Shown: positions 23,628-64,000 of the stretch, piece after piece
Numbering within the stretch: the first letter of the stretch is position 1
How the letters are laid out: every line of letters begins with the position of its first letter
From: Anaeramoeba flamelloides
Lineage: Eukaryota > Metamonada > Anaeramoebidae
DNA: 64,000 nucleotides
Direction of reading: 5' to 3'
NCBI GenBank assembly: GCA_027625915.1
Contig: JANTQA010000015.1
Location: 2,480,001-2,544,000 of the forward strand
Notes under the pieces: model-generated
Seen by the model: only the letters and a program-made list of their open reading frames with translations
The model's database searches: none
Told to the model about the DNA's origin: nothing
Made by a program: the position numbers and the translations under genes

Positions 23628-25206
23628 ATGTCTAAATTATTAGATCGTCTCCCTATTGAAGGAAAGAAACTTCAAGAATATTTTCAAAAGCCACACATTA
23701 ACGTTGTCTTTATTGGACATGTCGGTAATTAAACTTTTTTTTTTTTTTTTTTTTTATTTTTCAATTCTAATTCATGTGACCATTCGCAATTTTTAAATAT
23801 TTTATCATTCATAGACTCTGGAAAAAGTACAATTGCAGGGCATACCATGGTTTTGACTGGAAACATTGATCCTAGGATCCTTGAAAAATTAGAAAAAGAA
23901 GCCCAGAAGAAAAACAGACAATCATGAAAGTTTGCCTATATCATGGATTTAACAGAAACAGAACGACAAAAAGGAAAAACAGAGGAGGTCGGACAAGCTT
24001 ATTTTGAAACTAAACATCGAAGATTTACAATTCTCGATGCTCCAGGTCATGGATCTTTTGTTCCCAATAGTAACTAATCAATATTTCAATTTTACACATA
24101 CAAAACAAAACATCTTTTTCTTCTCTCTCCAAAAACATCAAAAAAAAAAAAAAAAAAAAAAAAACTTTGGTTTAGTGATCGGAGGAGCAGCACAAGCCGA
24201 TGTTGGAGTCTTGGTAATTAGTTCACGTAAAGGCGAATTTGAAACAGGATTTGAAAAAGGAGGTCAAACACGCGAGCACACGATCTTATCCAAAATCATG
24301 GGAATTGAAGATTTGATTGTTGTTATTAACAAGATCGACGACAAGACTGTCAAGTATTCTGAAAAGAGGTACCAAAAAATTGTCAACAAGCTCAAGCCAT
24401 TTTTAAAAAGGGTTGGATACGATGTGAAGAATCGTGTCAAATTTTGTGCGATTTCTGGCATGACTGGCGAGGGTATGAAGGAGCCACTTGATCAAAAAAA
24501 GTGTCCCTGGTATACTGGCAAGACTTTATTGGAAGAACTTGACTGCTTAGAGCCGCCAAAGGACTTGTCTGGAAAGCCCACCCGAATGACGATCATTGAC
24601 AAATACCGAGCATCTGGTGTGATTGCTTATGGCAAGATTGTATCAGGGAAGGTTTCAAAAAATGAGCCTTACCTGTTGATGCCACTTATGCGTAAAGTTA
24701 CGATTGCGGGTATGACAAACCAAGAGTATCCCGTTGAAGAGGCGAGAAGCAACGAAAACACTAAAGTGAGACTTAAGGGTGTTGAAGAGGAGGAATTTAA
24801 AGTTGGGTATGTCCTTTCCTCGGTTGAGAACCCCGTGCCGGTAAGCAAAAGCTTTTTAGCGCAAGTTAACCTTTTAAAGCACGAGTCCATTATTTGCCCT
24901 GGCTACCAAGCCGTTATGCATTTGCATTCAACAACAATCGAGTGTACATTAAGTAAGTTTCTTGCTGTTGTCAATGTTAAAAAGGAAAAGGTAATTGAAA
25001 AAAATCCCAAATTCATGCTTCCAAACCAGACAATAGTTATCAAAATTGAAGTTCCTGTGCCTATTTGCCTTGATATATACCAAAATAATAAACAATTGGG
25101 AATATTTACCTTAAGAACCATGGGGAAAACCATTGCAGTTGGCAGGGTCACACATATATTTAATAAAAAGAGATCAATGAAAAAGAAAAATATCAAAAAA
25201 AATTAA
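23628..25206 (+). CDS. Eukaryotic release factor 3 GTPase with in-frame TGA
   Basis: eRF3 is the GTPase partner of eRF1 in translation termination. The exons are 23628-23724, 23815-24069 and 24176-25206, with introns of 90 and 106 bp, both phase 1. Splicing restores GHVDSGKST (P-loop) and PNMIGGAAQADVGVLV. Other motifs are KGKTEEVG (switch I), DAPGH (G3), NKID (G4) and SGMTGEG in the G5 region. Domains 2 and 3 follow (EEEEFKVGYVL, IICPGYQAVMHLH) and end in FTLRTMGKTIAVGRV, giving about 460 codons. The N-terminus is short (about 24 residues before the GTPase strand), without a long prion-like or PABP-binding extension. At 23925-23927 the codon is TGA, exactly where family members have Trp (NRQS-TGA-KFAYIMD versus NRESWY-AYIMD). 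It may be a sequencing or assembly change, a pseudogene mutation, or a read-through site. Everything else looks intact. It ends in TAA. Confidence 0.85.
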
Positions 25207-31917: not shown

Positions 31918-33936
31918 TTACCAAAAAGGGCACCAACCTATATAACTTTGTGATAAATTTTCGATTGAAATTGCTTCATCAATTAACATTTGAACTTGTT
32001 TTTTTAACTTTTAAATTATTTATTTGGTCAAAATCATTTCCTGTTAATTTATCTTGTATTCTTTTCAATATCTGTCTAGCTTTTTTATTTTCCACTTGTT
32101 TATTATTGATATTAATATTAATATTAATATTATTCTTATTTTGATCATTAACCTTATTATTTTTGTTTGTATTTTTCTTTGATTTCTCGTCATCTTCATT
32201 ATTCATTTCATTTTGCTTTTCATTATTGTTAATATCGATTATTTTCCAGCCAATTAAAGGGTCGTGTACGAAAGCCTCGAGCATTACCATTAAGGAGTCT
32301 TTATTTTCTCGTAATAGCTTCATTACATTCTCACAGGTGTGTCTAAATGTGCCTTCGATTCCGGATATTTCCATTGCGTTAATTAGCATTCTTGTCAGCC
32401 TGAAGGGGATCTTTTCTGGTAATTGTGATCGCACTCTTGTGACTTCAAAGCAATCGCCAAAATCGATATGTATTATTTTTGCGTTAAACTTCTGCATCAT
32501 CAGGTTTCGGGGGTGCCTGTCACCCAATCCTAGAATGTAGCCGACCATTGACATCAGTGCCAAGCTGGTTGAAAAATTTGTGCGTCTCTCGAGCCAAGAT
32601 TCTGAATTTAATGACCTTAGCCAAAGCACTTTTTTAATTTCATCACCTTTCGTCTGCTCCAAAGATCTTGTAAAAATTTCAATTTTGTTAATAGTGGGCA
32701 GTTGTTCTAAATTACTCGTTATGTCTTCAATGATCTTTTTTTCAAAATCTGGATGAATATTACGATTTTTTCTATAATTGTGTACCAATTCCGAGAGCGT
32801 GTTGCAATGAGGAACCCATTCAATTAAACCCGAATCCGTCGATAGCGGTGTTACGGAATATTTGGTAATTTTGATATGCTGCCGATAAGTTATTGGATTT
32901 TGGTTCAAAATGGTATTTATTAAGCCAAATAGCTGGTTCACTCTTTCGTCTAACCGAATGTCCTCGTGGGCCTTCAATAAAAATTTGTGCGTTTTTCCAT
33001 TCGTGCTATTTATTATTTTAATTTTTCTCGGCTTTTGCTTTGATCTTATTACATTTACAATGGGACAAAATTCTTTAATTTTAATAATCTCCTTCCCTGG
33101 TTTGTACGTACCCGGGATGGCCAATTCCAGGTTATTAATTTTTTGTAATTTTGGGCTTATATATTCGAGCTTTAATGAATTCAGATATATTAATTGCTTT
33201 CTAATTTGCTGAAACACGATACTATATAGGTTCCATGCCTGGGTTAAAAGCCCAAGATCTGGTTTTTTTAAATACTTTTGACAAAATTCTTTCGCTTCAA
33301 TCAAATACCTCCCATACTTTTGGATAAATGAGACTTCTCTCATGGTAATTGGCACGTTAGAAATCATTTCATGCAACGGTTCTAAAATTAAAATCATTCC
33401 AAAATGATCATTGTTAATAAAATATGCCTCGGATGCCTCTTCTAAGCCAGCGTACCATAATTCTTCCCATAACGTTACGATTTTATTCAATTCATTTGAA
33501 ACCATTTCTGCTTCGTTTACTAATTTTGGTGAGTGCCTTTTCATTTTTTCTAATAATAATTTTGAAATATTTTTTAATTTTTTATTTTTTTTATTCATAT
33601 TTTTTTTATTTTGTTCTTTTTTCCGATTAGAATTAGAATTAGAATTAGAATTAGAATTAGAATTAGGATTTAATTTGGATGCGGATTCTGGTTCAGATAC
33701 TGATTCTGATTCTGAATTTGTATTGAAATCTGAATCAAAAGATGTTGAGGTTGAGGAACTTAATGATGAACTTGAATTGATAGAAGATGTAGAATCATCA
33801 TCGTCATCATCATCATCATCATCATCATCATCACCACCACCATTATTATTATTATTATCAGTATTATCATTTGAAATATTATTAAAGTTATGTTCTATAA
33901 TTGATTTAAAAAATAGACTCTCGTCATTATCATCAC

Positions 33937-33970
<34 letters not shown>

Positions 33971-36900
33971 TTGTTCTTCGTTTCCTTTAATTCTGTTTTC
34001 ATTTAAATATAAATCTTCGTCTGGATATATTTTCTCTGTTGAATTTGGATTTATTTTTTTTTTAAAATTGAATTTTTTGTGTTTCAAATTGGTTTTTTTA
34101 TTTGGGTCTCTATTTCTATTTCTATTTCTATTTCTATTTTTTTTTTTTTTTGTTAAAAAGTTTAGAGAATTGATATTCTTTTTTTTATTTAGCCATTCGT
34201 TTTTTCTTTTTAAAGATTTTAATCTATTTTTAGTTTCATTTTCTGAAATATTAAATACTGTTAGCGGGTAAATCAAGGCCTGTGGATGAACTTTACCAAC
34301 TTCGTTTAGTATATAACTGATAGTTTTTTTAAAGGGTATTGCGGAAGAGTTAATTCTAGCAATAATTTGAGGGATGACTTTCAGCCAAGTGTCAATTGAA
34401 ACCGATTTGAAATGATTTAAAATTGTCTTTCGAACAATTTGAGAGGAATTAAATTCGAACCATAAAGTCAATAATCTTAAAATGTCTTGAATAGAATTTG
34501 GGCCAGAGTTCAATGATATTGAATTGAAAAATCCTTTAATTGCATTTATTAAATAATTTTGCAAGCTTTTATCCTGGAAATCAATATTAGTATTTTGATT
34601 GTTATTATTTAATAATTTTTTTTTTTTATTAAAAATGATTTGGAAATTTAGAAAAGCCCAGCTATGCCAAGATTTATACCATTTTTTATCATATTCGGTG
34701 GAAATTTGAAATAATTCTAAAGCCTGTAAAATATATTTTTCGTTATAAATCTTGTTTCCTTTGCTTGTCGCTGTATTAATATAAGTGTATCGATTATTAG
34801 CGTTATCATGTATGTCATTATCATTATTAGGATTTGAATACAGGTTTAGTATCCAATTACCCAACGTTAAGAAATATTTTGCCCTTAATTTGGAATTTTT
34901 TTTCGCCATCCCATCGAGATCTACAGACAATAAAGATTGTTCTTTTAACATTTCCTTTTTCTTTTTTTCCTTAGATTTAATATTTTTATACACTAATTTA
35001 AATTCCTCCATTGTAGATTGCGGCAAAAAAATATCATTTAATAATTTTTTATTGAGTTGATCCTTAATTATAAACATTTTATTAAATCGATCAATATTAT
35101 TAAAATTATTGAATATCTTTTTTTTGATTTGATTGTTTTTTATATTGTTATTACTACTATTTAATTTTTGTTTTTTTTTTTTCCAAATTTGTTTAATTAT
35201 TTTTGTTTTTAATTTTTGTTTTCTTTTTTTTTCAATTAATTTCGAAATTGATTTTTTATTTTGTTTATTTAATTTAATTCTTTGTTTTTTTTCAATTTTT
35301 TTAAAAATGCTTTTTTGTAATTTTATTTGTTCAAAATGTGAAGGCGATGGTATTTTTTTACATAATTCTAATAAATATTCAAAAGATTTATTTTTTTCTC
35401 CTTTTTGATATAAAATATTTAAATATTCTAATAACACTTTAGGGTAATTTATTAGATTAAATTTATTAAAAATATTTACCCTATTATTTGAACTGCCGTT
35501 ATAATTATTATTATTATTATTATTATTGTAATTTATTAAATTAATAACACTTGTTTCAGCCAAATTATAATTTTGATTTTTCTTTTTAGCTAATTTGCTA
35601 AATTTTAACCAAATTTCAATATTTTCATTTGGTGGTACAATAATTGAATGGATTGATAAAAATTTCCCCCATATGTTGTATTCCCTTTTACAATTAAATA
35701 ATCGTTTTTTCCAATTTTTTTTAATTTGCTTAACCAATTTCAAATTATTATTTTTTTTAGCAATTTTAAATTTAATTAATTCTTCTAATTCGACCAATTG
35801 TTGAAGCAATACTATTTTGTTATAAGATCTCGAATAAGATTCATTTATTAAAGCAGCGTGTTTTTTTGTAATGAGTTTTCTAATTAAATTAATTATATTT
35901 AATGCTTGGTTATATTTTTGTTTTACTATCTTTAATATTGATTTAAAAAACAGTCTTTCAATCAAATTGTTTTCAATAAATTTTAAATATTTTTTCATTT
36001 CTTTGAAATCTTGAATATGTAATGATGCGTTAGTAGCTAGAGGAGCAATTAGTCTTTTTAATTTTAAGTTTGAATTGTCCCAAATTTGTTTAGTTTGTTT
36101 AAATAATTCCTTCCATTCCCCCAAGGAATTTAGGCATCTAAATATCCCAATAATTATTTTGTTTTGATTTAAATTCATATCTTGATTATTTGTATCTGTT
36201 AAATCATCCTTAAAATTAATATTATTATTATTAAATTGGTTGTTATTCAAATGGTTGTTATTCAATTGGTTGTTATTCAATTGGTTGTTATCCAATTGGT
36301 TGTTATTCAATTCGATTAAATCAATTTTATTTTGATATTCCTTTAAAGCTTCATCCCATTTATTTAATTCTTCATACCAAATCTCCTTCAATTTAATCTT
36401 TAAATTCTTTTTAGTATATTTTATTATACCAACAGACACGTTTGGCTTTTCCAGTTGGTTGTTTAATTGTATTAATTTTTCAATAGTTTCTTGGTTTTTG
36501 TTTGATTGGAATTCAATTTCTTTATAATATAATGCCTTGGCAAAATTATTACATTTCTCTGCAATTTTACTTATATTCTTTAAAGGTATTTGTTGATCAA
36601 CTTGCCCCATAAATTCAAATAAATTCAATAATATATTTAAAATTGAATTAGGAATTTTGTTTTCATTGATTAATAATTCTAATATCTTGATTAATTCTTT
36701 TTTATTTTGTTGATTTAATTCAACCCAGCAACTTAAAAATGCACTATTAAATATTTCTTTACTTAATGTAATATCCGTTTGGATTAATGTAGAGCAACTT
36801 CTAATAATTGGGGATGGTGATTCAATAAATAATTGGATTGAAAATTGCCGAAACCATTCTTCCCATTCTTCTTGATTATAATAACTTTCAATTAGCCAAG

Positions 36901-39900
36901 TATTCTTGAGATTATTTTCATTGAAATCTAATTTATCTAATTTAATTAGATTATAATTATTCTTCGGATCATTATTTTTTTTGATCAAATTGGTTTTGCC
37001 CTGTTGGTCATGCAAATTATTTTTATTATTATTATTTGATTTATTTACATTACTATTTTGATTATTACTATTATTACTATTGGCATTATTATTTGGATTG
37101 TTATCTTGATTTTTTTGGCTGTTCTTGGAATTAATGTTTTTGTTAATAGTGTTATTAGTAGCATAGTTATTAATATTATCATTACTGTTACTATTTTCAT
37201 TGTTATTAATTTGCTTATTATTATTGCTTTTACTTTTAATCGAGAAAAATTTTTTTGAACTGTTGGTGTGTGTAAATGGCGATTCGAAAGAATTAAAAAA
37301 ATCTTGTAAAGAGTTCATACTATAATTATCATTTTCAAGATCATCTATATAATTATCATCATTCTGATTCATGTTATTATTCATATTCTTTTTATTTGAC
37401 TCGTTTTTTTCATTTTTATCAAATTCATTCGTGCTTTCGTTACTAAGTGTATTCGTGTTTTCATTTTGATGGTTTAATAATTGTAATTGAGAATAAGTGG
37501 AAAATTTTAAAAATGTTTTTGGGTGATCATTATTTTTTTTGCTATCATCATTTTTTTCAAAAAATTCTTGATTTTTATTGAGTTTGTTTATTAAAATGGA
37601 ATAAAAAGGATGAGTGATTTTTCTTTTTTGTAATATTTTTTCAATTAGGGGGATAAAAATTATAAAATCATTTTTGAATTGTATGATTAATTGGCATAAT
37701 GTTTGTAAGCCGGCAGTTTGCAATTCCCTTTTGTCAGTGTCTATTAATCTAGAAAGTGGATGAACAAGTGTCGAAATATATGAAGATAAATTTAAATTAT
37801 TTGATAGCGCGCCAATAGTCACCAGTGACGTTATTCTGACATTTAAGGGGGCTTCATTTTTTTCAAATAATTTAATTATTTGTGGGAAAATTAGGTCGAT
37901 GTAGTCTTCCAAATTGGATTCAAAAAATTGAATTGTATTTAAAATCTTGATTGTGTGTTGGAAATTTTTACTATTATCATTTTTAATGACTTGTAACATT
38001 AATGGTAAAATCTTGGGTAAATATATTTTGGATTGTTCTAAATTTAATAATGAGATTTCTACTATTAAATCTAAAATATAAAACAATAATTGATTAGACC
38101 AAAATTTAATAATTATTTTAAAAATTTGTTTTAAATTCGAAGCTATTTGTTCTTTTACAATGTTTATAATTATTTTTAACTGCTTTAATAAAAATATTCT
38201 AAATAGTGTTTCCCCTTTTCTCATTTTTTGAATGAAAATTGGTAAAATTATTGGCAAGAATTGAATTGAATTTTTTTTAATTATTTTTAAGATCATTATT
38301 AATGTTCTAATAATAATTTGATAATGTTTATTTAGTGATTTTTTTTTCAACATTTTAATTAAACTTGAAATTGTTATTCTTAAAGAATAATTGTCATGAT
38401 CTAATTCAATGCCAGGTAAAATGTTGTTTAACTGGTTTAAATTTTTTTTTTCTAATCGTTTTTTATTTAATTTTTTAATTGTTTTTATTTTTTTATTTTT
38501 GGTTTCATTGAAATTGTAATTGTTGTTGAAATTGTTGCTTTTGTAATTATTATTATTGGTGGTGGTGGTGCTACTGGTGCTGTTAGTGATGATGTGGGTG
38601 TGGTTGTTGTTGGTGTGACTTTTGCTATACCTTCTTCTTCTGCTGCTGCTATTATTATTATTGTTGTTGTTGTTGTTGTTGCTGTTGCTGTTGCTGTTGT
38701 TGTTGTTGTTTTTGTTGTTCTTATAATTGTAATAATGATTATTATTCAGATTATTATCATTGTTATTATCGTTGTAATTGTTATTATTATTGTTGTTCTT
38801 ATTTTTGTGTATTTTTCTTTTGTTCATTCCATAATTATAATTATTATTATTGTGATTTTTTTTTTCTTTTTGTTTAATAAATTTTTTTTCATAATTAATT
38901 TTATAAATAAAGGGATCAATTGCACCAAAGAAACCAATTATTTTTAAAATGGTTTTTTTAATTTCAAATTCCTTTTTATTCTTATAAATATTATTTAAAA
39001 TAATAAATATTTCTGGGTATTTAGTCATAATTTGAATAAAATAACTAGTTTTCTTACTCAGTTTCAAAAATGCTTTTAAAATATTTAATAAATTAACAGT
39101 TGATAATTCTTCTTTCAATAAGATTATTATTTGATCTATTAATTTTTCTAAATATTTCTTTATTATTTTTTGAGAGATAATTTTGCTTAATTTGCCAATT
39201 GAATATAGCAATTGTGAGATAATTGTTGAATTCTCTAAAAATGTATTATTAAATTCCAAATTTAATTCGTTTATTAATTTTTTTAAAATTAAGCCACTAT
39301 ACGGCCTGAGTAATAATTGCATTGTTGAAATAATATGGGATATTAATTTTATTGTTTCTAATTTTGTTTCCCATTCAATAATATATTCGAGATCAATTAA
39401 CAATTTTAATAAAAATTTTCTTAATGGTGAAATGATCAAAATTGAATTAATTTTTGATAATTGCCCGAGAATTGTAAGAACCAAAAATCTAATTTCAAAG
39501 CATTCGTCATTCAAAAGAAAAAATATTGATGAAAAATGAATTGAATTTAATAATTTCAAATTTAGACATGGCTTGAATGATTGGAAAATTGTTAGTCTTA
39601 CTTTTAAATTGTTGTCAGTAATGCCAACTACTAATAAATTATTTAATATTTGATTCTGATCTTCGATAATGATTCTTTGCAAATAATTTTCGTTTTTTAA
39701 TTTTATTTCTTGAATTTTTTTTTCTTTCTTGAATTTTTTGATATCAATTATCTTTGATAATTTTCTTTTCTTATTTTGTTTTTCTTTTTCTATTTCTCCT
39801 TCTTTCTCTATTGCTATTTCTCTTTCTGGTTCTATTTCCCTTTCTGGTTCTATTTTTCTTTCTGGTTCTGTTTCTCTTTCTAATTCAAGTTTCTCTTCTA

Positions 39901-42900
39901 ATTTCTTTGCTTCCTGTCTTTTCATTTCTTCCTCTTTCAATTTTTTTTGCTTTTCCATTTCAATTTTTTTTTCATTTTCATTCTCAATTTCAATCAATAC
40001 TTGAAAGCAAACAATTGCAGTGATTTTTTTGATTTTAATTGGATACCCATGAAGAAATTTAATCAAATATTTTTTACATAATTTTAATAATAAGAAATTA
40101 TTAAATTTAAATAACTTTATACAATAAATAGTGTAATAAATTTGTTCAAAATTAGTATCATTATCATCGTTATTTGTTGATAATTTTAAAGAGTTTTTTA
40201 AAATGAATTTTATTTGAATAAATAATTTGCTTAATAAGATTTCTTTGTGGCCTGGTAAATTTTCAATTAAATTTTTAAATACATTAATTGTTAATTCATT
40301 AAATTTTAATTTAAATAATTTATCAAAAATTTTGTTTTTTAAGCATCCCTTTAATATTTTTTCTCCCAAGCTTTTTGATAACATACCTAAGCATACGATA
40401 CTTGTCGGACAATAATTTTGTTCGTTGGTGGGATCTAACGATTGCCCTATGCGTCTTAATGTTGGTGGAATATGTATTTCAAAGCCATTTTTGACAATCA
40501 ATGCTATAGATCCTAAGCATTGATAAATATTTGTTCTTTCAAATGGATATTGCTTGAGTGATTTAATAAGATATTTTACTATTTTGACTAGATTTGTATT
40601 TCCATTAAAATTTGAATCATGTTTGATTAGAAATGGTATTAATTTTAATACAGTCTTTCGTATTTCTGAGTTTGAATGGTTTTTATATTTCAATATCAAA
40701 TTGCAGATTTCATTATAATATTTTTCTAGTAAGAATTGGGTGTTGTTGAAAATTTCATAAAATACTAATAATGAACCATGAATGGAATGTGTGTTATTTG
40801 ATTGGAAGCCCTATAAGTTTGATTTTAAAGAATTTATAATGATGTTTTTGTATTAAAAAGATTTCAGTTCAAGTTTTTTTTTATTGTAATTTACAATTTT
40901 TTAAAATATATATATAAGATTATTAAATCCAAGTTAAGGTCTTAATGAATCTTTAATTAGATTAACAATGGTGTCTATATTTTATGATATTTTTAAAAGA
41001 TTGAGTTTCAAAAATTTGATTCTCTTCTTTCTGATAAAAGGGTGTTAAATTGGGTTAACGTCTTTTTTTATTTTTTATTTTATGACAAAGAGAAATAACA
41101 TATCTCATTCGATACTGAAATTTTTGATCTTGAGAAAACTACACACATCATTACTCAAGTCTTGGTGCCTCTTTAATATATGTGTTAGTTCATTCTTATT
41201 AATAGGTGATGTGTTTTTGGGTTTTTTGATCTTGTGAATTTTTTTAAAATAAAATTTTAACTTTTTTATAATAATCATAATTTTTTTAGTTTTTGTTAAG
41301 AGTAGTTGTTTTTTTTGAGAACAACAAAAATCTTTTTTGTTTTTATTTTTTTTGAGAACAACAAAAATATTTTTTGTTTTTACTTTTTTTTCGAAATTTT
41401 GATTTCATTCAAAAAAGTCACTTTTTCAAAAAGTCTTTGATTTTAAATTTTCTGATTTTGTGATTGTTCCAAATTAAACCAAAAGTTGTTTTAGAAGTAA
41501 AGTCTCAAGTACCAATTTTTTTTTTTGTAATTAATGATCGTTAAAAAAAATATATTTCATGAAAATCGGTTTCCTTTTTAGAACTATTTTTGACTACTTT
41601 GATAAGTAAAATTTTTTTAAAATGATCAATTTGAGTTGAAAAAAACAGGTATTCTAAAGAAAAGGGGTTTTTGTATCTTGGTAAAATAGAAGAAGAAAAT
41701 TTTTTTTCAAGTTAATTAAGGATTAAAAAAATCATTTTGCTCTACATTTGGTTTATTGCTCATTATGATACTCAAATCATTTTTTTTGGGGTTTACAATT
41801 ATTTAGTTTTTCTTAATAGAATTTGTACCTTTTACATTATTTTTTTAAAAAAAAAAAAGCAAAATTGGGTATTTCAAGACAAAGAGGAAGAAAAAAAGCA
41901 AAGCTAAAGACAAAAAATTGTCAGTAGAAAAATTTGGTAACATAAATCAAAAGTCAATTAAAAAAAAAACATAGAAAAAATTCATTAACAAAACCTTTTT
42001 TAAAAAACATTTTTTAAAAAATTGAGATTGGATCAAAAGAAGGAGTAATTGAACAATTCCAAAATAAACCAAATTGAAATAAATGTCAGCATTTTCTTCA
42101 CATCCGAACAAAGGGTCTTTTTAACCCCCTAGTAAACGTACTTACAAATAACATACTTGTTTTTGTTGTCACAGAACTGGTATGGCAAAATTTTGCATAG
42201 GTTGTTCAAGAAATTATCAATAAAAAATTTGAGTACATAAGCACTGCTTTTAATATCACTACAAATCGATAAAATAGAATTTTAATTTAGTTAATCACCC
42301 TTTACGTATTTCCACTTTTGACTTTCTTTTTTTTCGCTTCTCTTATGATCTTTTATCAGGAAATGATTTTATTTATTCACTTCACCTAATATAAAAAAAA
42401 TAAATGAACACAAAAATCAAAGTATCTCAGAAAAAAAAAAAAGTTTTTATCAATTTGAACTTTTATAAAAATTAATTTTTAAAATTTTATTGATTTGTTG
42501 TCAAGATTTTTTTTTTTTAATTATTTTGAACAAGTTTGGCTGATCAAGCTTATGAATGAAAAGATCATATTGTGTAACAATTGACATTTTAATGATGATA
42601 ATGTTGTTTTTTAATCTTTGACAGTAAAAATGAAATTAATATATTTCAAAGTTGATCTTTTGAGATATCTCAGGGTAAACCCCTAATGAGATATTTATGA
42701 AAAAAAATCAATGATTTTTGTTTTTCAACTTGCTTGAATAAGACTATTGAAATTGCTAAAATTATTTGTGTTTAAAATTAAAATTGTTTGTAAAGGAATA
42801 TCAAATTAATGTGGTGTCTTTGGTAGTTTGTTCTATCAATATTACACCAATTTCTAAAATATTATGATCTGAAAAAAACATTACTTTTCATTTTTTTTTT

Positions 42901-52670: not shown

Positions 52671-55600
52671 ATGTCTAGTTCCAAAGACATTTATAATCTT
52701 CCGAGGGAAGAACTTCCCAAATGGATTAAAACACAAATTAAAGTTTTTTCAAAATGGGTAAATTTGCATTTGTCTAAACGAAGCCTTGGTGTTGAGGACA
52801 TTCAAACAGATTTTAAATCTGGTGCTAATTTGATAAATTTGATCGAGATACTTAGTGGCGAAACGTGTAAAAAAAGATGGTCTAAAAAGCCTCGATTCAC
52901 AATTCAGTACAGAGAAAACGTTTCAATAGCACTTGATTTCTTGGTCCAAGTTAAAGCATCTAAAACTGGCCTTGTGAATGTTGGTTCAGCTGGTAAATAT
53001 ACAATTATTTTTTCAAAAAAAAAAAAAAAATTTTTTTTTATTATTTTTATTTATTTTTTTTTTTTCTTCTAAAAACTTCCTTTTGAGAGATTTTTTCTAC
53101 TTTTAAGTTTACCAAATTCTTTTTTTGATCTTTTGTTTATGAATAAATTTTTTTTCTGATTTACAAACTTGGTACTTTTTTCACTTCATTCTAAAAAAGG
53201 TTCCTCTTTTCGTTCTCAGATTTACACCATTTTCATTTATTAAAAACCTTTTTATGGACTCGAACGGTTTTAATAAACATGGTTTGGAAAAAAATAAAGT
53301 AAAAAATAAAAAAGATCTAAATTTATTTGTAATTTCTCATACAGCCATTTCCAAAAGTGAATCCAACAACTTTAAAAAATAACTCAAAAATAGTGAGAAA
53401 GAAGAAATTGAACAACCTGTCAAACACTTTTTAAAACCTCTTGTTTTTTTCATTTTGAAACACAATTTTTTTCCTTTAGACCACTTTGTATTCGTTTCAT
53501 AAAAATTTTTCAATACAGCTACCTTTTTGTAAAATCAACTTTCCAGAATTGAAGTGAAAAAAAAAAAAAAAAGGATGTAATTTTCTCAAAGATTTCAAAA
53601 TAAACACCTTTTTGAAAAAAAAAAAAAAAAAATAATTTATACTTTTCCAAACATATCCTTTTTCTTCAAACAACAAACCAAAAAAAAAAAAACAAAAGAT
53701 ATTACTGAAGGAAATTTAAAAATCATCTTAGGGCTTATTTGGATCTTAATTAATAGATACCAAGTTTCTTCTGATAAGAATTCCAACAAAAAGACTAGTG
53801 GGCAAAAAGAGCTCTTAAACTGGATCAAATCGAGATGTGAAGGAAACGAAGACGTGATCATTGGGGGTTTTAAAGACAGCTTCTGCGATGGTAAAGCGTT
53901 TATTACGTTAATTGACAAGCAGAAACCAGGGCAATTAAAAAACACTGACAATATGGAAGACGAAGAGAGGCTAACTTATGCCTTTGATCAAGCCAAGGAA
54001 CTAATGGAGATACCAAAATTATTAGAGCCATCTGACTTAACTGGAGAGGTTGATGATCTATCTGTCATTACCTATTGTTCTTACTACCGCAATTACAGTT
54101 TAGAGAATGAAGATGAGGAACAGGCCGAAGAAAAGAATGTTCCAGAAAAGATTAGTGGTGTTGAATGCATTGAAAGGCAATGTGATTCGCTTCGAATTCA
54201 ATGGGAGGAACCCGAGGAAAAGGAAAACAAGGACATTAAGGAGTATTTTGTCAAAGTCTTGAGAAAGGATAGCAAATCGAAGCCGATTGAACTTAGAACC
54301 ATTGATCCTGAAGTTCTCATTGAGGGATTAGGATCAAATGAAGAAGTGGTCATCACTGTTTGCGGCATTAACGAGAAGGGTGAAGAAGGAGATGAATCAA
54401 AGCCCTTAAAGGTGAAAACCCTGGGCGACGCACCCAAGCCCATCAAGAGCATTTCCTTATTAAGCAAGGTAGCATCAAGAATTGTTGTCAAATGGGAGAA
54501 ACCAGAGAACAGTGGAGGCAAAATTGACAATTACGAAATTGAAATCATCAAGCTCGATGAGAACGACGACGAAGAAGAGCCCATCGTTGCAAATAGCGAT
54601 TCCGAATTATTCAAAATCTCAAATTTGAAACCCTTACAAAAAACCAAAGTTAGAATTAGAGCACACAATGACATGGGCTTTGGCGAATGGTCGGAGCCAT
54701 GTCTGTTTCAATCGTCAAGTGACATTCCATCACAAGTTGAAAACATATATTTGGAAACAGAAAAGACCACAAATGAAAAATTGGTTGTCAAATGGGATCC
54801 ACCAAAGGATAACGGCGAACCAATTGATTATTATCAAGTCAGCATCAAGTCTGGCCAAAGTAAAAAGCCCAAGGTTGTTAAAACAAAGGAACCAATTGTT
54901 GAAATATCTGATTTGATGGTAAACAAAAAAGTGGCAGTTTTAATTAAGGCACATAATGATAACGGATTTGGCAAGGAATCCAAGCCATTTAATTGCCTCA
55001 CAAAAAGTGGTGTACCATTAAAAGTTGATCGTATTTTCTGCTCCAAATTCCAATCAACTAAATTGGATTTGATGTGGAATTCGCCAAAGGACCAAGGATC
55101 GCCAATTGATAAATACAAAGTTGAAGCTATTCCACAAAAATCTCAAGAAAAGGAGAAAAAAGGCAGTGGAAGTGACAGCAGCAGCAGCAGTAGCAGCAGC
55201 AGCAATGACAGTGGTATTGGCAGTGATAGTGAGAAAGTAAAAGAAAAAAAAAAGAAAAAAGAAGACAAAGATAAAGGCGACGAAATAAAAATTTTTGAAT
55301 TTAATGATCCTAAAGGATTGGTAGAAGATCTAAAGCCAAATACAGAGTATTTAATTAAAATATATGCCCACAATAAAAATGGCTTTGGAGAAGCAAGCGA
55401 ACCAAAGGCTTTTAAAACATTAAGTTACATTCCCGATCAAGTCAAGTCAATTAGATGTGTTGAAAAGACTTCAAAGGAATTAACATTAAAATGGAAAGAA
55501 CCAAAAACAAATGGATCTGAAATTGATTTTTATCAAGTAGAAATTAATTTAATTAAAAATGAAGACGATATTGATCTTGATGATGATGATGATGATGTTA

Positions 55601-58600
55601 AATTAAGCGATGACGATTTTGATGAAGAATTTAAAGATGAATTTAAAGATGAATTAAATGAATTAAATGATGAGGAAGCCCAACAAATTATTTTAAGAAG
55701 CAACGAACCAACAATCCAAATTCAGGATTTGGAACCAAATCGTGAATATGAAATTAAAATCAAAGCACATAACGAAAACGGGTACAGTAAAGAAAGTGAA
55801 CCCAAAAAATATGCGACTGTCGGTGATGTACCAGATAAGATCGATATTGTGGATTGCTTAAGACCCAAACCAAAATCCTTTGTCTGCCGATGGGACGAGC
55901 CTAATGAGAATGGTTCGTTTATTGACAGCTATGAAATTGAAATTTTGAATTTAACCAAAAAAGAAAAGTCAAAGGAAAACGAAATTGAGCCCATGGTTAT
56001 TTCCACTGAAGAAACCATGCTCATTATTAATGACTTGGAACCAAATCAAAAATACGAGGTTAAAATTAGAGGACATAACGACAGTGGCTTTGGAGAATTT
56101 TCTGATCCTGTAATTGTCAAAACACCATCCGGCGTACCAGAACAGATGGGATATATTGAATGTGTTGCAAATGAAGCAACCAAGATCAAATTAAAATGGG
56201 ACGAACCCGAAAGCAATGGATCACCAATTGATCGATATTATCTTCAAATTTCGCAAAAGGACAGCACCGATGAACCAAGAATGGTACAATGTGAAGAAAA
56301 CGAAATTGAAATTGATAATTTGGATTCAAATAAAGAATATTCAATTACAGTTACTCCACATAACGAAAATGGCTTTGGTTTAGAATCAGAGCCAACAATA
56401 ATTAAAACCAATACATCAATACCAAGCCAAATAGACTTTATTGAGTGCTATGACACCACTTCAAAATCAACAAAAATCAAATGGGAGGAACCCGAAGAAA
56501 ATGGAGGCGAAGATGTCGATTATTATGAAATTAAAATTAAATTAAACGAGAAAAATCAAGACGAAACAGAAAATGAAAAAAATAAACCAATTATAATTAA
56601 ATCTGAAACAAATAATTGCGAAGCAACAGATTTGTTACCGGGTAAAAAATATACAATCAAAATTAAGGCACATAATGGTAATGGCTATGGCAAAAAGTCT
56701 GATCCTAAGCAATTTAGAACAGAGACTTCAAAGCCAGATCAAATAAGTGAAATAAAATGCGTTGAAAAGGGACCCAAGAAATTAAAATTAGAATGGGAAC
56801 AACCAGAATCAAATGGCCCAAGAATTGATTATTATGAAATTGAATTAATTGAAAAAGATAAAAATAATGAAGATGATGAAAAAAAGAAGAAAGGTAGCGA
56901 TGGAAGCAGCAGCAGCAGCAGTAGTAGTAGTGACAGTGGCAGTGATAGTGAGAAAGAAAAAGAAAAAAAAAAAGGAAAAGGAAAAGGAAAAAAAAAAGAA
57001 AAAGTTAAAAAAATAAAATCCAATAAAAATAATATTAAAATAGAAGATCTCAAACCAAACACTGAATACGAAATTACTGTTAAAGCACATAATTCAAAAG
57101 GATTTGGTGAGCCATCACCAGAATTAAAAGTCAAGACTGAAGGCGATGTACCAGAGCCCATTAAGAATCTTAAATTGGATGAAATTGAATCTTCAATAAT
57201 TCAATTAGAATGGAACGAACCTGAAGATAATGGTGAACCAATTGATTATTATCACATCGAATTATATGAATTATTTAACAACAACATTAATGATGATGAG
57301 AATGATTTTGATGAAGGTGAAATAAATGACGAAATTGACGCAATAACCTTACAAACTGAGGATTGTAATTTAAAAATTGAAGATTTAAAATCAAATCACA
57401 AGTATTTGATCAAAATTAAAGCACATAATGAAAATGGATTTAGCAAAGACAAATACCAAAAATTTAATACATCTTCAAGTAAACCCAACCAAGTCGAAAA
57501 AATTAATTTCCTTGATTTCCAACCAAATAAAATTAGTATTGAATGGGAAAAGCCCAAAGATAACGGCGATCCAATTGATCATTATAAAATTGAACTAACA
57601 AAATTAAATGACTATGATTCCAAACCTGAGGTATTTAAAACACAAGATTTAGATTTCACATTTGAAAATTTGGAACCAAACGAGGATTATTCTATTACCA
57701 TTCAAGGACATAATAGCAATGGGTATAGTAACAAATCAAACCCTGAAACTGCAACCACTGAAGCAGATAAGCCAGATCCAATCGAAAAAATCGACATTAA
57801 GGAAATTGAATCTGAATTTATTGATCTTGAATGGGAAGAACCCAAAAGCAATGGTGAGCCAATTGATTATTATCAGATTGAATTAACTCCAAAAATCAAT
57901 AAGGACGATGAAGATGAAGATGAAGATGAAATTGTAAAGAAAATTAAAGCATTACCAAAGACAATCAAAACACAGGATCCCAAATTGAAAATCGAAGATT
58001 TGAAACCAAATAAGGAATATGAAATCAAAATTAGATCACATAATAAAAAGGGATTCAGCGAAGAAAGCAAACCAATTGAATTTAAAACAATTAGCAAAAT
58101 GCCCGATCCCGTTGAGATAATTGAATCAAATGGAACAACATCAGATCAAATTAATTTAGATTGGAAAGAACCAAATGACAATGGATGTGAAATTGATTTT
58201 TATCAAATTGAAATTAAAAAAAAAAATAATTTCAATGAAGAAGAATTGGAAAAGGAAAAGAAAGATAAAATTGAACCATTAATTTTCAGAAATCAGGAAC
58301 CGTTTATCATTATTGATAATATGGAGCCAAATACTAAATATGAAATTATTGTCAAGGCACACAACGAAAATGGGTTCAGTAAAGATAGTAAAGTCAAAAA
58401 AATCACGACAGAGGCAGATGTACCTAACCAAATCGAAGATTTTGAATTTAGCGATGTGGAACCAGAGGAATTTGAAATTAAATGGGAAAAGCCCAAAGAT
58501 AATGGCGAGCCAATTGATTTTTATGAAATTGAACTTATAGAAAACGAAAACAAAGATGATGAAGATGATGACAATGATGATGATGATGATGATGATGACG

Positions 58601-61600
58601 AAGAACAACGCTCTACCATCCTAAAGAGTGAAAAATGTAAATTAAAAATTAAAGATTTAATTCCAAATCAAAACTATTCGGTCTCAATTCGTGCACATAA
58701 CGAACTTGGATATAGTGAGAAATCAATAGTAAAGGATATTACAACCACAAGTAGAAAGCCATACAGCGTCGATAAAATTAGATGCATTGACCTTCAGCCA
58801 GATTCAATGACAGTGGAATGGGAAGAACCCGAAAACGGTGGTTTACCAATCGAACATTATGAAATTAAAATCTTGAAAAATAATGATAAGGATAACGAAA
58901 GAACTATTAAATCTGAAGACAACCAATTCAAAATTGAAAACTTGGAACCAAACCAAGAATATACAATTACTATCAAGGCTAAAAATGAATTAGGCTATAG
59001 CGAACCCTCAAATGAAAAAAATTTGAATACAAACTCCGATATCCCGGAGAGTGTTGAAGAGATTAAATGCACAGAGAAACATCCTAATTCCTTGATCATC
59101 GAATGGGAAGAACCAAAAGATGGTGGTTTACCAATTGATTATTATGAAGTTGAGATAATTCCCAAAAAAGATGAAAATGAAGAAAATGAAGAAAATGACG
59201 AAGACGAGCCAATAACTTTGCAAACTGAAGATTGTAATTTAGAAATTGAAGATTTAAAACCAAACCAAGAATATGAAATTAAAATTAGGGCTCATAATAA
59301 CAAGGGTTTGAGCGAAGAAAGTGAAAGTTTTACTTTCAAAACAGAAATCGACTATCCAGATCAAATTAAAGATATTGAATGTCTAAATATTGAATCTAAA
59401 TTAATGCATATTCAATGGGAAGAGCCAAATGATGGTGGCTCACCAGTTGATTATTATGAAGTCGAAATAATCCCTAAGTCTCTTGACTATTTTGATAATG
59501 TTAGTGATCAAGAAACAGATGAAAAAGAAGAAAAAGATAATAATAGTAGCAGCAGCAGCAGTAGTGATAGTGGAAGCAGCAGTGATAGTGATAGTGGCAG
59601 TGGCAGCGATAGCAAGAAGAAAAAGAAAAGGACAAAAAAGAAAAAGCAAAGAAAAATAGTTAAAACCACTGAAGATTTAGATTTGGAAATTGAAGATTTA
59701 AAACCAAATAATGAATATTTGATTACCGTTAGGGCACACAACGAAAAAGGATTTGGAAATAAATCAGATCCTATCTTGTTAAGAACTAACACCGATGCTT
59801 CGGAAAAAATTAAAGAATTAAATTGCGGTGAAAATGGACCTGATTTTATTCATTTAACTTGGGAAGAACCAGAAGACAATGGCGAACCAATTGAATATTA
59901 TGAAATTGAATATTTTCCTGTGGATGATGAATCAGAAAAAAAAACAATTAAAACTAACAATCCAGAAGCAGTATTAAAGGATTTAAAAGCTAATACCAAA
60001 TATTCAATTCAAGTTAAAACACATAATAAACTTGGGGACAGCGAACCATCACCAGAACAAATAATCAAAACTGATACAGCACAACCAGAGCAAATCAAAT
60101 CAGTTAAATGTGTTGACTTCCAGTCTGATCAAATGACATTGGAATGGGAAGAACCAGAAGACAATGGCTTACCAATTGATCATTATGAAATTGAAATCAT
60201 TCAAAAAAAAAAAGAAGACGAAGATGATGAAAAGGAAAATGAAGAAGAAGAAGAAAAGGAAACTGATATAATTGTATTAAAATCTGATGAACCAAAAATA
60301 AAAATTGAAGATTTAAAGCCAAATCAAGAATATGAAATTAAAGTTAAAGCACATAATGAAAAGGGATACAGCGAATCATCACCAGAAAAAATTGTCAAAA
60401 CTAATACACATATCCCAAAAAATATTGAAGAACTCAGGTTAATTGAAAATTTACCAAACTCCCTAAAATACGAATGGGACAAACCTGAAGATCATGGATC
60501 ACCAATTGATTATTACTTGGTTGAATTTGCAAAAATTTCCAAAGATCAAGATGACGATGATGAAAATGAAGAGAATGAAAATAATGAAGATGACGATGAA
60601 CCAATATTTATTAAATGTAATGAGCCATTATTTGAAATTAAAGAATTAAAGCCAAATAAAGAATATGAAATTAAAGTTAAAGCTCATAATGAAAATGGTT
60701 TAAGTAATGAGGCTACAGTAGAAATAATCAAAACAGATACAGATGCCCCAGAATCTATTGATAAAATCAAAATAAATGAAATTGATCCTCGCAATATTGA
60801 GATTGAATGGGAAAAACCCAAAGATAATGGTGAGCCAATTGATTATTTTGAAGTTGAATTAATCCCAAAAAATGATAATGAAGATGAAGAAAAGATCGAA
60901 ATTGAACCAATTGTATTAAAAACCGAAGAACCAAAAATACTTTTAGAAGACTTAAAGCCAAATCAAGACTATCAGATTAAAATTAAAGCACATAACGAGA
61001 AAGGATTTAATGAAGAACCATTCACTGAAAACATTAAAACTCAAAAGGATGTGTCCGATAAAATTGAGGATATAGATTGTGGTGAAGTTGGTCCAAATAG
61101 TATTGATATAGAATGGATAGAACCTGATGATAATGGTGAACCAATTGAATATTTTGAAATTCAAGTAACACCAAAAAAAACAAAATCAAAAAAAGAAAAA
61201 AAAAAAACAAAAAAGAAAAAAGGCAGCGATAGTAATAGCAGCAGTAGCAGCAGCAGCAGCAGCAGTAGTGATAGCGATAGCGATAGTGATAGTGATGATG
61301 ATAATGACAATAAAAAAGCGCACAAACCAATTATTTTAAAAACTAACCAACCAAAATTCCACCTCGAAAATTTGGAACCAAATACTGAATATGAAGTTAA
61401 AATTAGATCACATAATGGACTTGGGGACAGTGATTTTAGTGAACCATTAATGGTCACAACCCAAAAGGATGTCCCAAGCAATATCCAAGAGATTAGATGT
61501 GATGATTATAAGCCTACCACATTGGCCTTAAGTTGGGACGAACCAGAAGACAATGGCGAACCAATTGACTTTTACGAAGTTGAAATTATGGATAAAGATG

Positions 61601-64000
61601 AGAAGGAAAGCGAACCATTGGTAATCAAAACTAATGAGCCAAATTACATGCTAGATAATTTAGAGCCCGGAAAGGAATACGAAGTTAAAGTTAAAGCACA
61701 TAACAATACGGGACTAAGCAAAGAACCAACAAAGAAGACCTTTAAGACATCCTCGGGCGAGCCAAACAAAATTAAGAAAATCGATTGCACAGATGTGGAT
61801 TCTGACAAATTAACCATTGAATGGGAGGCACCTGAAGATAATGGCTATCCAATTGAAAACTATAAATTGACATTGACAGATACCAAAGATAAAAATGCAG
61901 AACCCATCGAGGTGAAATTAAGTCCTGAAGAAAATAAATTCACTTTTGAAGGTTTAAATCCCAACACTGGCTATAAATTAGATATCCAATCCAAAAATGA
62001 AAATGGTTATTCTCCAAATTCAGATAATCTTGTTTTCAAAACTGGATCAACACATCCCGAAGGAATAGAAAAAGCAAAACCAGTTGAAATCGGACCTACG
62101 CATTGCAAACTGAAATGGGAAGAACCAGATGATGGTGGTAGCCCAATAGATTATTATGATGTTCATATTTATGATCAAAACGAAATAAATCAAAAAAAAC
62201 AACAACAGGAACAGGAAGGAGAAGAAGAAAAGGAAAAAGAAGAAGAAAAGGAAAAAGAAAAAGAAAAAGAGGGAGAAGAAGGGTTATATAAAGGAATTGA
62301 ACCAGTTCTCTCCTTAAGAACACCTAAAAGCAACATTCATATCCCATTATTAGACCCCAACACTCCATATGTAGTTAATATCAAGGCCCATAACGAAAAG
62401 GGATATAGCAAGGATTCCGAAGCTACAAAATTCTCAACCAAGAAGGATAAGCCTCAAAGAATTAAAGATGTTAAAGTTAAAGAGACCGACAATAGAGGAG
62501 AAATTCAAATTTCATGGGATGAACCAAACAATAACGGATCTCCAATTAAGCATTATGAAATCCTGGTGAATGATAAAAAGACATACAAGACACCTGCACC
62601 AACAATCTTTTTACAAAAGTTAAAAACATTTGAAAATTATAATATCAAAGTTCGCCCAATAAATGGTATTGGTAAAGGTGACTATTCAGATCCAATTAAC
62701 CATTTCCTAAAGGACTCTGATCCTAAGATGCTATCAAAAAACGTCTCTGCTGAAATTTCCAATCAGGTTCAAAAAATTCTTGACGAATTTAAAGTGCCAT
62801 TTAGTGTAAATGAAACAGCATTTGATAGTAAAAATAATCATGCAACATACCAATTTGGTACAAGAAAGATCAGATTAAGAATCCTTGAAGGATTTGCAGT
62901 GATTCGAGTCGGTGGTGGATATATGACATTTAAAGAATTTGTGAAAAAAAATGCTGGTCCAGAGGTTAGGATTTTAAAGAAAAAGGGCATGGGTGTTTCT
63001 GTTTTGCAGGGATCAAAGAAAACTTCGAAGGCAATAGGCGATCTTCCACCTGAAGAAGTAGAAGTCTCTTCAGCTATAGAGGAAATGGGAGAACAAGTCG
63101 AGGTATTAAGCACCCGAAATAAACTTTTGGCAAAGGCAACTAACCAAGAAGCACAAGAAACTGAAGAAAAGCCAAAAAAAACGAAAACTAAAGGCAGAGG
63201 TAAAAAAGTAGCCAGAGGAAGAGGAAGAGGTACCAGAGGAAAAGTAAAAGGAAGAGGAAGAGGAAAGAAAGTTGGAACACCTAAAAAGACAACTACAAAA
63301 CCAAAACCTAAAGAAACTCCTTCAAGTACAAAAAAAACCAAAGTTACTGTAAAAGGGAGAGGAAGAGGAAGAGGTAAGAAAGTTGCAACACCTAAAAAGA
63401 CAACTACAAAACCAAAACCTAAAGAAACTCCTTCAAGTATAAAAAAAACCAAAGTTACTGTCAAGGGAAAAGGAAGAGGAAGAGGTAAGAAAGTCGGAAC
63501 ACCTAAAAAAACAACTACAAAACCAAAACCTAAAGAGACTCCTTCAAGTATAAAAAAAACCAAAGTTACTGTAAAAGGAAGAGGAAGAGGAAGAGGTAAG
63601 AAAGTTGCAACACCTAAAAAAATAACTACAAAACCAAAACCTAAAGAGACTCCTTCAAGTACAAAAAAAACCAAAGTTACTGTAAAAGGAAGAGGAAGAG
63701 GTAAAAAAGTCGGAACACCTAAAAAGACAACCACAAAACCAAAACCTAAAGAGACTCCTTTAAGCACAAAAAAAACTAAAGTTACTCCTTCAAGTACAAA
63801 AAAAACCAAAGTTACTGTAAAAGGAAGAGGAAGAAGTAAGAAAGTTGCAACACCTAAAAAGACAACCACAAAACCAAAACCTAAAGAGACTCCTTTAAGC
63901 ACAAAAAAAACTAAAGAGACTCCCTTAAGCACAAAAAAACCAAAAAGTACAAAAAAAACTAGAGGAAGAGGAAGAGGAAGAGGAAGAGGAAGAGGAAAGA
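52671..64000 (+). CDS. Giant CH-CH / 26x FN3 / GAR cytoskeletal linker (partial, 3' end off window)
   Basis: This is a predicted intracellular actin-microtubule cross-linker. Exon 1 is 52671-52992, intron 52993-53698 (706 bp, phase 1), exon 2 53699-64000, open to the window edge (at least 3,541 residues). The start MSSSKDIYNL is chosen because upstream codons are a T-run artefact. Residues 14-130 form a CH domain (KWVNLHLSKR, DFKSGANLINLIEIL, then NVGSADITEGNLKIILGLIW across the joint). Residues 136-241 form a second CH domain (LLNWIKSRC, FCDGKAFITLID). That is the tandem actin-binding arrangement. Residues about 255-3112 hold 26 FN3-like repeats of about 110 residues each (EWEEP..NG.PIDYYEIE, DLKPN.EY.IKI.AHN..G). 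At about 3123-3204 a GAR/Gas2 domain (TYQFGTRKIRLRI, VIRVGGGYMTFKEFVKKN) should bind microtubules. A Lys/Arg/Gly repeat tail follows. There is no signal peptide or membrane segment. Acidic and Ser-rich loops interrupt several FN3 repeats. Confidence 0.9.
55160..55270 (+). repeat. Ser/Asp then Lys/Glu insert in FN3 repeat 4
   Basis: AGC/AGT and GAC runs encode a poly-Ser block with Asp and Gly, followed by a Lys/Glu-rich block, placed in the loop after the YKVEAIP strand. Equivalent inserts occur in repeats 9, 17 and 22. Confidence 0.8.
56870..57020 (+). repeat. Ser/Asp then Lys insert in FN3 repeat 9
   Basis: Poly-Ser with Asp ([19 protein letters not shown]) followed by a Lys/Gly/Glu block, located after the YEIELIE strand, the same position as in repeats 4, 17 and 22. 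Confidence 0.8.
59515..59660 (+). repeat. Ser/Asp then Lys insert in FN3 repeat 17
   Basis: Poly-Ser/Asp/Gly followed by Lys/Arg-rich sequence, located after the YEVEIIPK strand. Same composition and order as the other three inserts. Confidence 0.8.
61165..61325 (+). repeat. Lys, Ser then Asp insert in FN3 repeat 22
   Basis: Here the Lys block comes first ([19 protein letters not shown]), then poly-Ser, then alternating Ser-Asp and Asp/Asn. It is placed after the FEIQVTP strand, the same loop as in repeats 4, 9 and 17 but with the order of blocks reversed. Confidence 0.8.
62740..62995 (+). other. GAR (Gas2-related) domain region of the cytolinker
   Basis: The protein segment contains VQKILDEF, TYQFGTRKIRLRILEG, and VIRVGGGYMTFKEFVKKN, the hallmark order of the GAR domain that binds microtubules in Gas2 and spectraplakin proteins. 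The zinc-coordinating Cys residues of animal Gas2 are not present here. Confidence 0.8.
63170..64000 (+). repeat. Coding tandem repeats in the basic tail, 111-bp unit
   Basis: The unit encodes about 37 residues: VTVKGRGRGRGKKVGTPKK, then TTTKPKPKETPSSTKKTK. The phrase GTTACTGT recurs at 63343 and 63454, exactly 111 bp apart, and later units are close copies with small length changes. The last 40 bases of the window are a pure GGAAGA repeat encoding Arg-Gly. The RGRGKK cores resemble AT-hook or RGG-like basic motifs, and in this protein they more likely add microtubule affinity. Confidence 0.85.

Follow-up and report, generated by a model that had tools for sequence, protein, structure and literature searches.

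We analysed a stretch of 64,000 nucleotides from the genome of Anaeramoeba flamelloides (254 Mb, 76 contigs), which covers bases 2,480,001-2,544,000 of contig C1 (12,797,701 bases) and is hereafter referred to as the window. At its 3' end lies a forward-strand gene with a predicted product of 3553 aa and 406 kDa, encoded by two exons and consisting of a tandem pair of CH domains, a rod of FN3 repeats, a GAS2-related (GAR) domain and a basic tail. Exon 1 (52671..52992, +) carries the ATG and most of the first CH domain (CH1), as supported by its open reading frame (ORF), the Pfam CH profile and a splice model, and is kept in two paralogs on contigs C30 and C48. The intron (52993..53698, +; 706 nt, GT..AG, phase 1) divides an Asp (GAY) codon near the end of CH1, where the junction reads NVGSA followed by DITEGNLKIILGLIW. 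Its position and phase are common to all three CH-CH paralogs, which lie on three contigs, with lengths of 3119 and 212 nt in the other two. According to the ORF and the splice model, exon 2 (53699..64000, +) encodes the end of CH1 and everything downstream, and its frame leaves the window to reach a stop at 64036-64038 in the adjoining genome sequence, which supplies the 3' end that the original prediction for this locus had sought in the next contig segment. CH2, the FN3 rod and the GAR domain form a single open frame with zero internal stops. Because the intron sits inside CH1, exon 1 alone is unable to make a whole CH1; given this and the uninterrupted CH2-FN3-GAR frame, it is unlikely that the CH and GAR parts belong to different transcripts, the outcome named beforehand as a possible refutation. 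Scans for tRNA genes and Rfam families across the window found nothing.

The two CH domains scored well above the Pfam CH cut-off of 26 bits (38.3 bits in exon 1; 62.1 bits for CH2, 53803..54093, +, ORF residues 75-171), which confirms the tandem N-terminal pair read from the letters alone, one of the two ends that characterize spectraplakins. The pair resembles solved actin-binding domains and matches 47 different PDB sequences with E-values of 1e-10 or lower. The top match was 5nl7 (E = 8.6e-41), annotated as a putative calponin homology protein and taken to be an Entamoeba alpha-actinin, followed by alpha-actinin (7aw8, E = 2e-34), spectrin, plectin and filamin, with MACF1 (4z6g, E = 1.1e-30) below the alpha-actinins. 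A genome search with CH2 returned just three CH-CH loci above 100 bits, the remaining 39 of the 42 matches scoring at most 64.4 bits. In the two actinin-like loci inspected (L033 and L042), the break that separates the CH1 and CH2 ORFs falls at the same point as in the linker genes, as judged at the ORF level only. The CH pair is predicted to bind F-actin.

The rod (54142..62706, +) is acidic (net charge -257 across 2860 aa), and several repeats carry D/E/S-rich insertions. Both the Pfam fn3 model (1078 bits, 26 stretches) and a custom FN3 hidden Markov model (26 domains, ORF residues 188-3042) recovered exactly the predicted 26 repeats in place of plakin and spectrin repeats. Each repeat is 34-56% identical to its best match inside the same protein. 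Compared with the C30 paralog, repeats 1-11, 13 and 14 best-match C30 repeats at an offset of +3, and repeats 20 and 22-26 at +4, while repeats 12, 15-19 and 21 fall outside this pattern; reciprocal pairs account for 18 of the 26 best matches. With C48, ordered pairing is limited to isolated repeats and, among the final four, repeats 23, 24 and 26, which pair with 16, 17 and 19. From these repeat-by-repeat best matches, the rod ends are mostly conserved and part of the middle has turned over. Codon-position differences between C1 and C30 were highest at the third position, both in the actin-binding domain (72/44/134 at positions 1/2/3) and in the GAR domain (17/10/50). The rod may work as a spacer.

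Directly after the last FN3 repeat comes the GAR domain (62716..63012, +; Pfam core 62827-62952), with a GAS2 score of 24.8 bits against a cut-off of 21.3. For its structural model, the top four second-look matches were all GAR entries, in keeping with a GAR fold, and plain Foldseek gave no significant match; on the combined basis of Pfam, the PDB profile search and this model, the domain is assigned as GAR. Among the ten GAR loci of the genome described below, seven exceeded the cut-off, either as genome matches or as isolated domains, and three fell below it (C1b, 17.6; C70, 19.4; C41, 17.7 bits); the C48 domain scored 26.2 bits alone and 20.6 within its full ORF. The zinc ligands of GAR domains are cysteines. 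At most one Cys is present per GAR here (0 in eight loci, the window included, and 1 in two), and therefore the cysteine zinc site is absent from these predicted domains. The GAR is followed by a K/R-rich repetitive tail (63013..64000, +; 340 aa to the stop past the window, 35% K+R, isoelectric point 11.7), again as predicted at the outset, and basic tails follow the GAR in all three CH-CH members (28-38% K+R). We then mapped the tubulin-contact residues of GAS2 given in PMC12084551 onto the ten GARs by alignment. The equivalent of R252 is R and those of G254-256 (the GGG hairpin) are kept in all ten, while W257 is replaced by an aromatic residue or retained in all ten (W in 1). Basic residues occupy the R242 position in seven (Asp in C1b, C70 and C41) and the K237 position in nine; K266 is K in eight and H267 is H in three. 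Among the GAS2 mutants tested, R252E and W257E had the largest loss of binding (PMC12084551). With the main tubulin-contact residues retained, the GAR and basic tail may bind microtubules.

We found at least ten GAR loci in the genome, comprising three CH-CH-FN3n-GAR genes (C1, i.e., the window gene, C30 and C48) and seven in which a predicted transmembrane (TM) segment stands in a TM-FN3n-GAR order. The GAS2 model matched five loci of the nine candidates scored and a GAR query from C61 matched ten of ten scored, and these counts are lower bounds. The single new architecture originally proposed is thus upheld in its domain order, but it is one of at least ten GAR loci; in seven of them a membrane helix is predicted, and no CH domain was found in the vicinity. 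By the custom profile, the CH-CH class has 26 (C1), 30 (C30) and 19 (C48) FN3 repeats, and the TM class has 56 (C11, main frame), 19 (C34), 18 (C61), 27 (C70) and 26 (C41), with two further members split over two frames (C75, 5 + 14; C1b, 35 + 3); Pfam counts were smaller where run on other members (C34, 13; C61, 17; C48, 17). The GAR match begins 2-4 residues past the last FN3 match in nine of the ten loci (4 in the window) and 134 residues past it in C61. One strong hydrophobic segment occurs in all seven TM members (KD19 3.07-3.49). It precedes the first FN3 repeat in the six members with a same-frame FN3 start mapped, none of which has a KD19 window >= 2.0 after that start, and in C11 it lies in another frame. 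Basic residues follow the segment, least clearly in C41. Based on the position of the segment and these trailing basic residues, TM members are probably single-pass proteins with a cytosolic rod. CH-profile genome searches gave zero matches near the seven TM loci, and Pfam searches of the C70 and C11 ectodomains gave nothing over the cut-off. A weak CH1-profile match at the 3' end of C11, in another frame (11.4 bits, domain E = 0.0023), was taken as chance.

Several observations on individual loci accompany this inventory. At C11, two different frames, one with the TM segment (536 aa, L011 965-2572) and one with the rod (5956 aa), meet in a lysine-rich low-complexity tract, for which an intron, a sequencing error and a real break are all candidates. 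Segments of P0001, a protein deposited under the name Anaeramoeba flamelloides, are encoded by the C1b locus; the NCBI model of P0001 joins an ORF ~7 kb upstream to the C1b TM-FN3-GAR gene (L053, L054, L060), possibly an annotation fusion. Other long FN3 ORFs lie outside the ten GAR loci, at C70:2267458 (2932 aa), C26:6096237 (1653 aa), C48:11522436 (5091 aa) and C1:12343571 (1658 aa).

We further compared the predicted linker with known systems. The spectraplakins (MACF1/ACF7, dystonin and Shot) similarly have an N-terminal tandem CH, a very long rod and a GAR near the C-terminus, and a probable actin-microtubule bridge would be common to both. In contrast, the linker has an FN3 rod and a GAR without the cysteine zinc site; plakin, spectrin-repeat and EF-hand families were all missing from the 24 Pfam families of the window ORF at E <= 0.1, and where spectraplakins have an EF-hand pair before the GAR, the GAR match here starts four residues after the last FN3 match. 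For these reasons, the linker does not belong to the spectraplakins, although it probably acts in a similar way, and the initial comparison with spectraplakins holds for the two defining ends. Alpha-actinin, filamin and spectrin have the same CH1-CH2 pair, with the CH1/CH2 ORF break found in the two Anaeramoeba actinin-like loci, whereas the linker has no spectrin-repeat or EF-hand match and an added microtubule-type end. Titin-family proteins are Ig/FN3 giants with a kinase domain and a long intracellular tandem FN3 array, and only the array is comparable; membership was rejected, as neither a protein kinase nor I-set was among the 24 Pfam families and the linker has CH-CH and GAR. The Ig-like Pfam families listed for the ORF overlap FN3 repeats. 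GAS2, GAS2L1-3 and amoebozoan CH-GAS2 proteins combine CH with a GAR and have in common with the linker the main tubulin-contact residues, but in GAS2 a single type-3 CH and a hinge linker (PMC12084551) stand where the protein described here has two CH domains (CH1 and CH2) and an FN3 rod of 2860 aa. Among the matches listed, a similar GAR core belongs to Polysphondylium violaceum CYY_004667 (P0014), nearly identical to that of C61 in the VRVGGGFMKFEDFVKK stretch (76% identity, covering 30% of the query region); this protein differs in its length of 816 aa, a weak PH match (22.4 bits, below the cut-off of 25.1) and the lack of any FN3 or CH match.

Taken together, we consider it likely that the gene encodes a giant cytosolic actin-microtubule cytolinker, belonging to a family with alternative actin or membrane anchors. 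The N-terminal tandem CH would grip F-actin, the C-terminal GAR and basic tail would grip the microtubule lattice, and the 26 FN3 repeats would set a long, perhaps extensible, distance between the two ends. In TM members, a membrane anchor would take the place of the actin grip on the same rod-plus-GAR module. The family may therefore tie microtubules to actin (3 loci) or to the plasma membrane or a connected symbiosome membrane (7 loci), cellular locations that are predicted. In Anaeramoeba, microtubules radiate from an acentriolar centrosome and symbiosomes are connected to the plasma membrane (PMC11550330), which would give both kinds of tether a plausible use. More tentatively, and with somewhat less than even confidence, we propose that in Anaeramoeba a two-anchor microtubule-tether family evolved from one FN3-rod/zinc-free-GAR module, the rod being combined with either an actinin-type actin anchor or a TM anchor. 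TM members would then physically link microtubules to the plasma membrane or to the membrane of the symbiosome, in which the sulfate-reducing symbionts are housed.

A rather unlikely alternative is that the protein serves as an elastic rod or scaffold anchored to actin, its divergent, zinc-less GAR having lost microtubule binding and now only capping the rod or interacting with a different partner. The near absence of cysteines, a window GAS2 score just 3.5 bits above the cut-off and the replacement of R242 by Asp in three of ten loci are all consistent with such a loss. However, all ten GARs retain R252 and the GGG hairpin and have an aromatic residue at W257, and R252E and W257E were the GAS2 mutants with the largest loss of binding among those tested; moreover, the GAR is followed by a basic tail in the three CH-CH members, and the dictyostelid P0014 has the same GAR core above the Pfam cut-off.

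The homology of both ends to spectraplakin ends would also be expected of a diverged true spectraplakin, derived from a CH-CH-spectrin-repeat-GAR ancestor by swapping the middle for FN3, but we regard this as improbable: the window ORFs have no plakin, spectrin-repeat or EF-hand match, the seven genome relatives are FN3-GAR proteins without CH, alpha-actinins outrank MACF1 among the PDB matches of the CH pair, and the two actinin-like loci have the same CH1/CH2 break (at the ORF level). Least probable of all is an artefact of the gene model: a CH exon joined in error to an FN3-GAR frame from a different transcript, or a misassembled rod. Repeats can confuse assembly, and the gene model is a prediction; yet domain order, intron site and phase are alike in all three CH-CH loci on separate contigs, CH1 itself is cut by the intron, the FN3 repeats reach no more than 34-56% identity to their best matches within the protein, and C1 and C30 agree in much of their repeat order. 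Chance domain calls were excluded by the Pfam scores and by the C30 and C48 paralogs with the same order and intron position.

In an unrooted tree of the last FN3 repeat and GAR, the three CH-CH members fall on one side (branch 91/90), within a poorly resolved topology (one of seven inner branches starred). This is compatible with an FN3-GAR gene having acquired the CH pair once, or with the reverse change. The CH1/CH2 ORF break and the PDB ranking fit an origin in which an actinin-type CH pair became fused to an FN3-GAR gene. Roughly 80-90 kb separate the CH1 exons of the C1 and C30 linkers from CH-pair genes at C1:2442496 and C30:2546353, respectively, whose CH2 ORFs measure 2367 and 2369 aa, and the presence of such genes near both suggests that the linker loci are in old duplicated segments.

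When the window GAR was searched in a set of 5.8 billion proteins, none of 59 candidates matched at E <= 0.01. The CH2+FN3 region gave 13 matches among the best 2427 candidates, none with both CH and FN3, including P0001 from the same genome, FN3 proteins mostly of animals and two spectrins, and the C61 GAR retrieved only P0014 among 67 candidates. Among the matches listed, there was no FN3-GAR or CH-FN3 protein from outside this genome. Since close paralogs, C30 among them, were not retrieved either, this absence is weak evidence that the architecture, with its membrane-anchored sister class, is new. No CH-FN3-GAR or TM-FN3-GAR protein was described in the titles and abstract openings of open-licence PMC articles among the matches listed, and neither fibronectin nor calponin occurs in the main text of PMC11550330. 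Amoebozoa, Fungi and choanoflagellates have been reported to have GAS2 together with CH, and one alveolate to have GAS2 (PMC9145010); the data of that survey of spectraplakin-like proteins are centred on Amorphea, and in its available text fibronectin appears once, in another context. Accordingly, the idea of a reinvented actin-microtubule linker holds for the assembly, which appears new, and not for the binding modules, because both ends are homologues of known domains.

Elsewhere in the window, an uninterrupted 2943-aa TOR kinase ORF (31979-40810, -) has FAT, FRB, PI3/PI4 kinase and mTOR domains and carries long asparagine-rich inserts. An eEF1A-like translation GTPase (23953-25206, +) matches the GTPase profile from position 86 of 188, and upstream exons are therefore likely.

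If the proposed function is true, spectrin and plakin modules are not needed to build a giant actin-microtubule linker, and such a linker exists in Metamonada, outside the Amorphea lineages central to the available survey data (PMC9145010). The TM sister proteins suggest a direct membrane-to-microtubule GAR tether, of which none was described among the literature matches listed. Overall, this family may provide candidates for how Anaeramoeba positions its symbiosome and microtubules.
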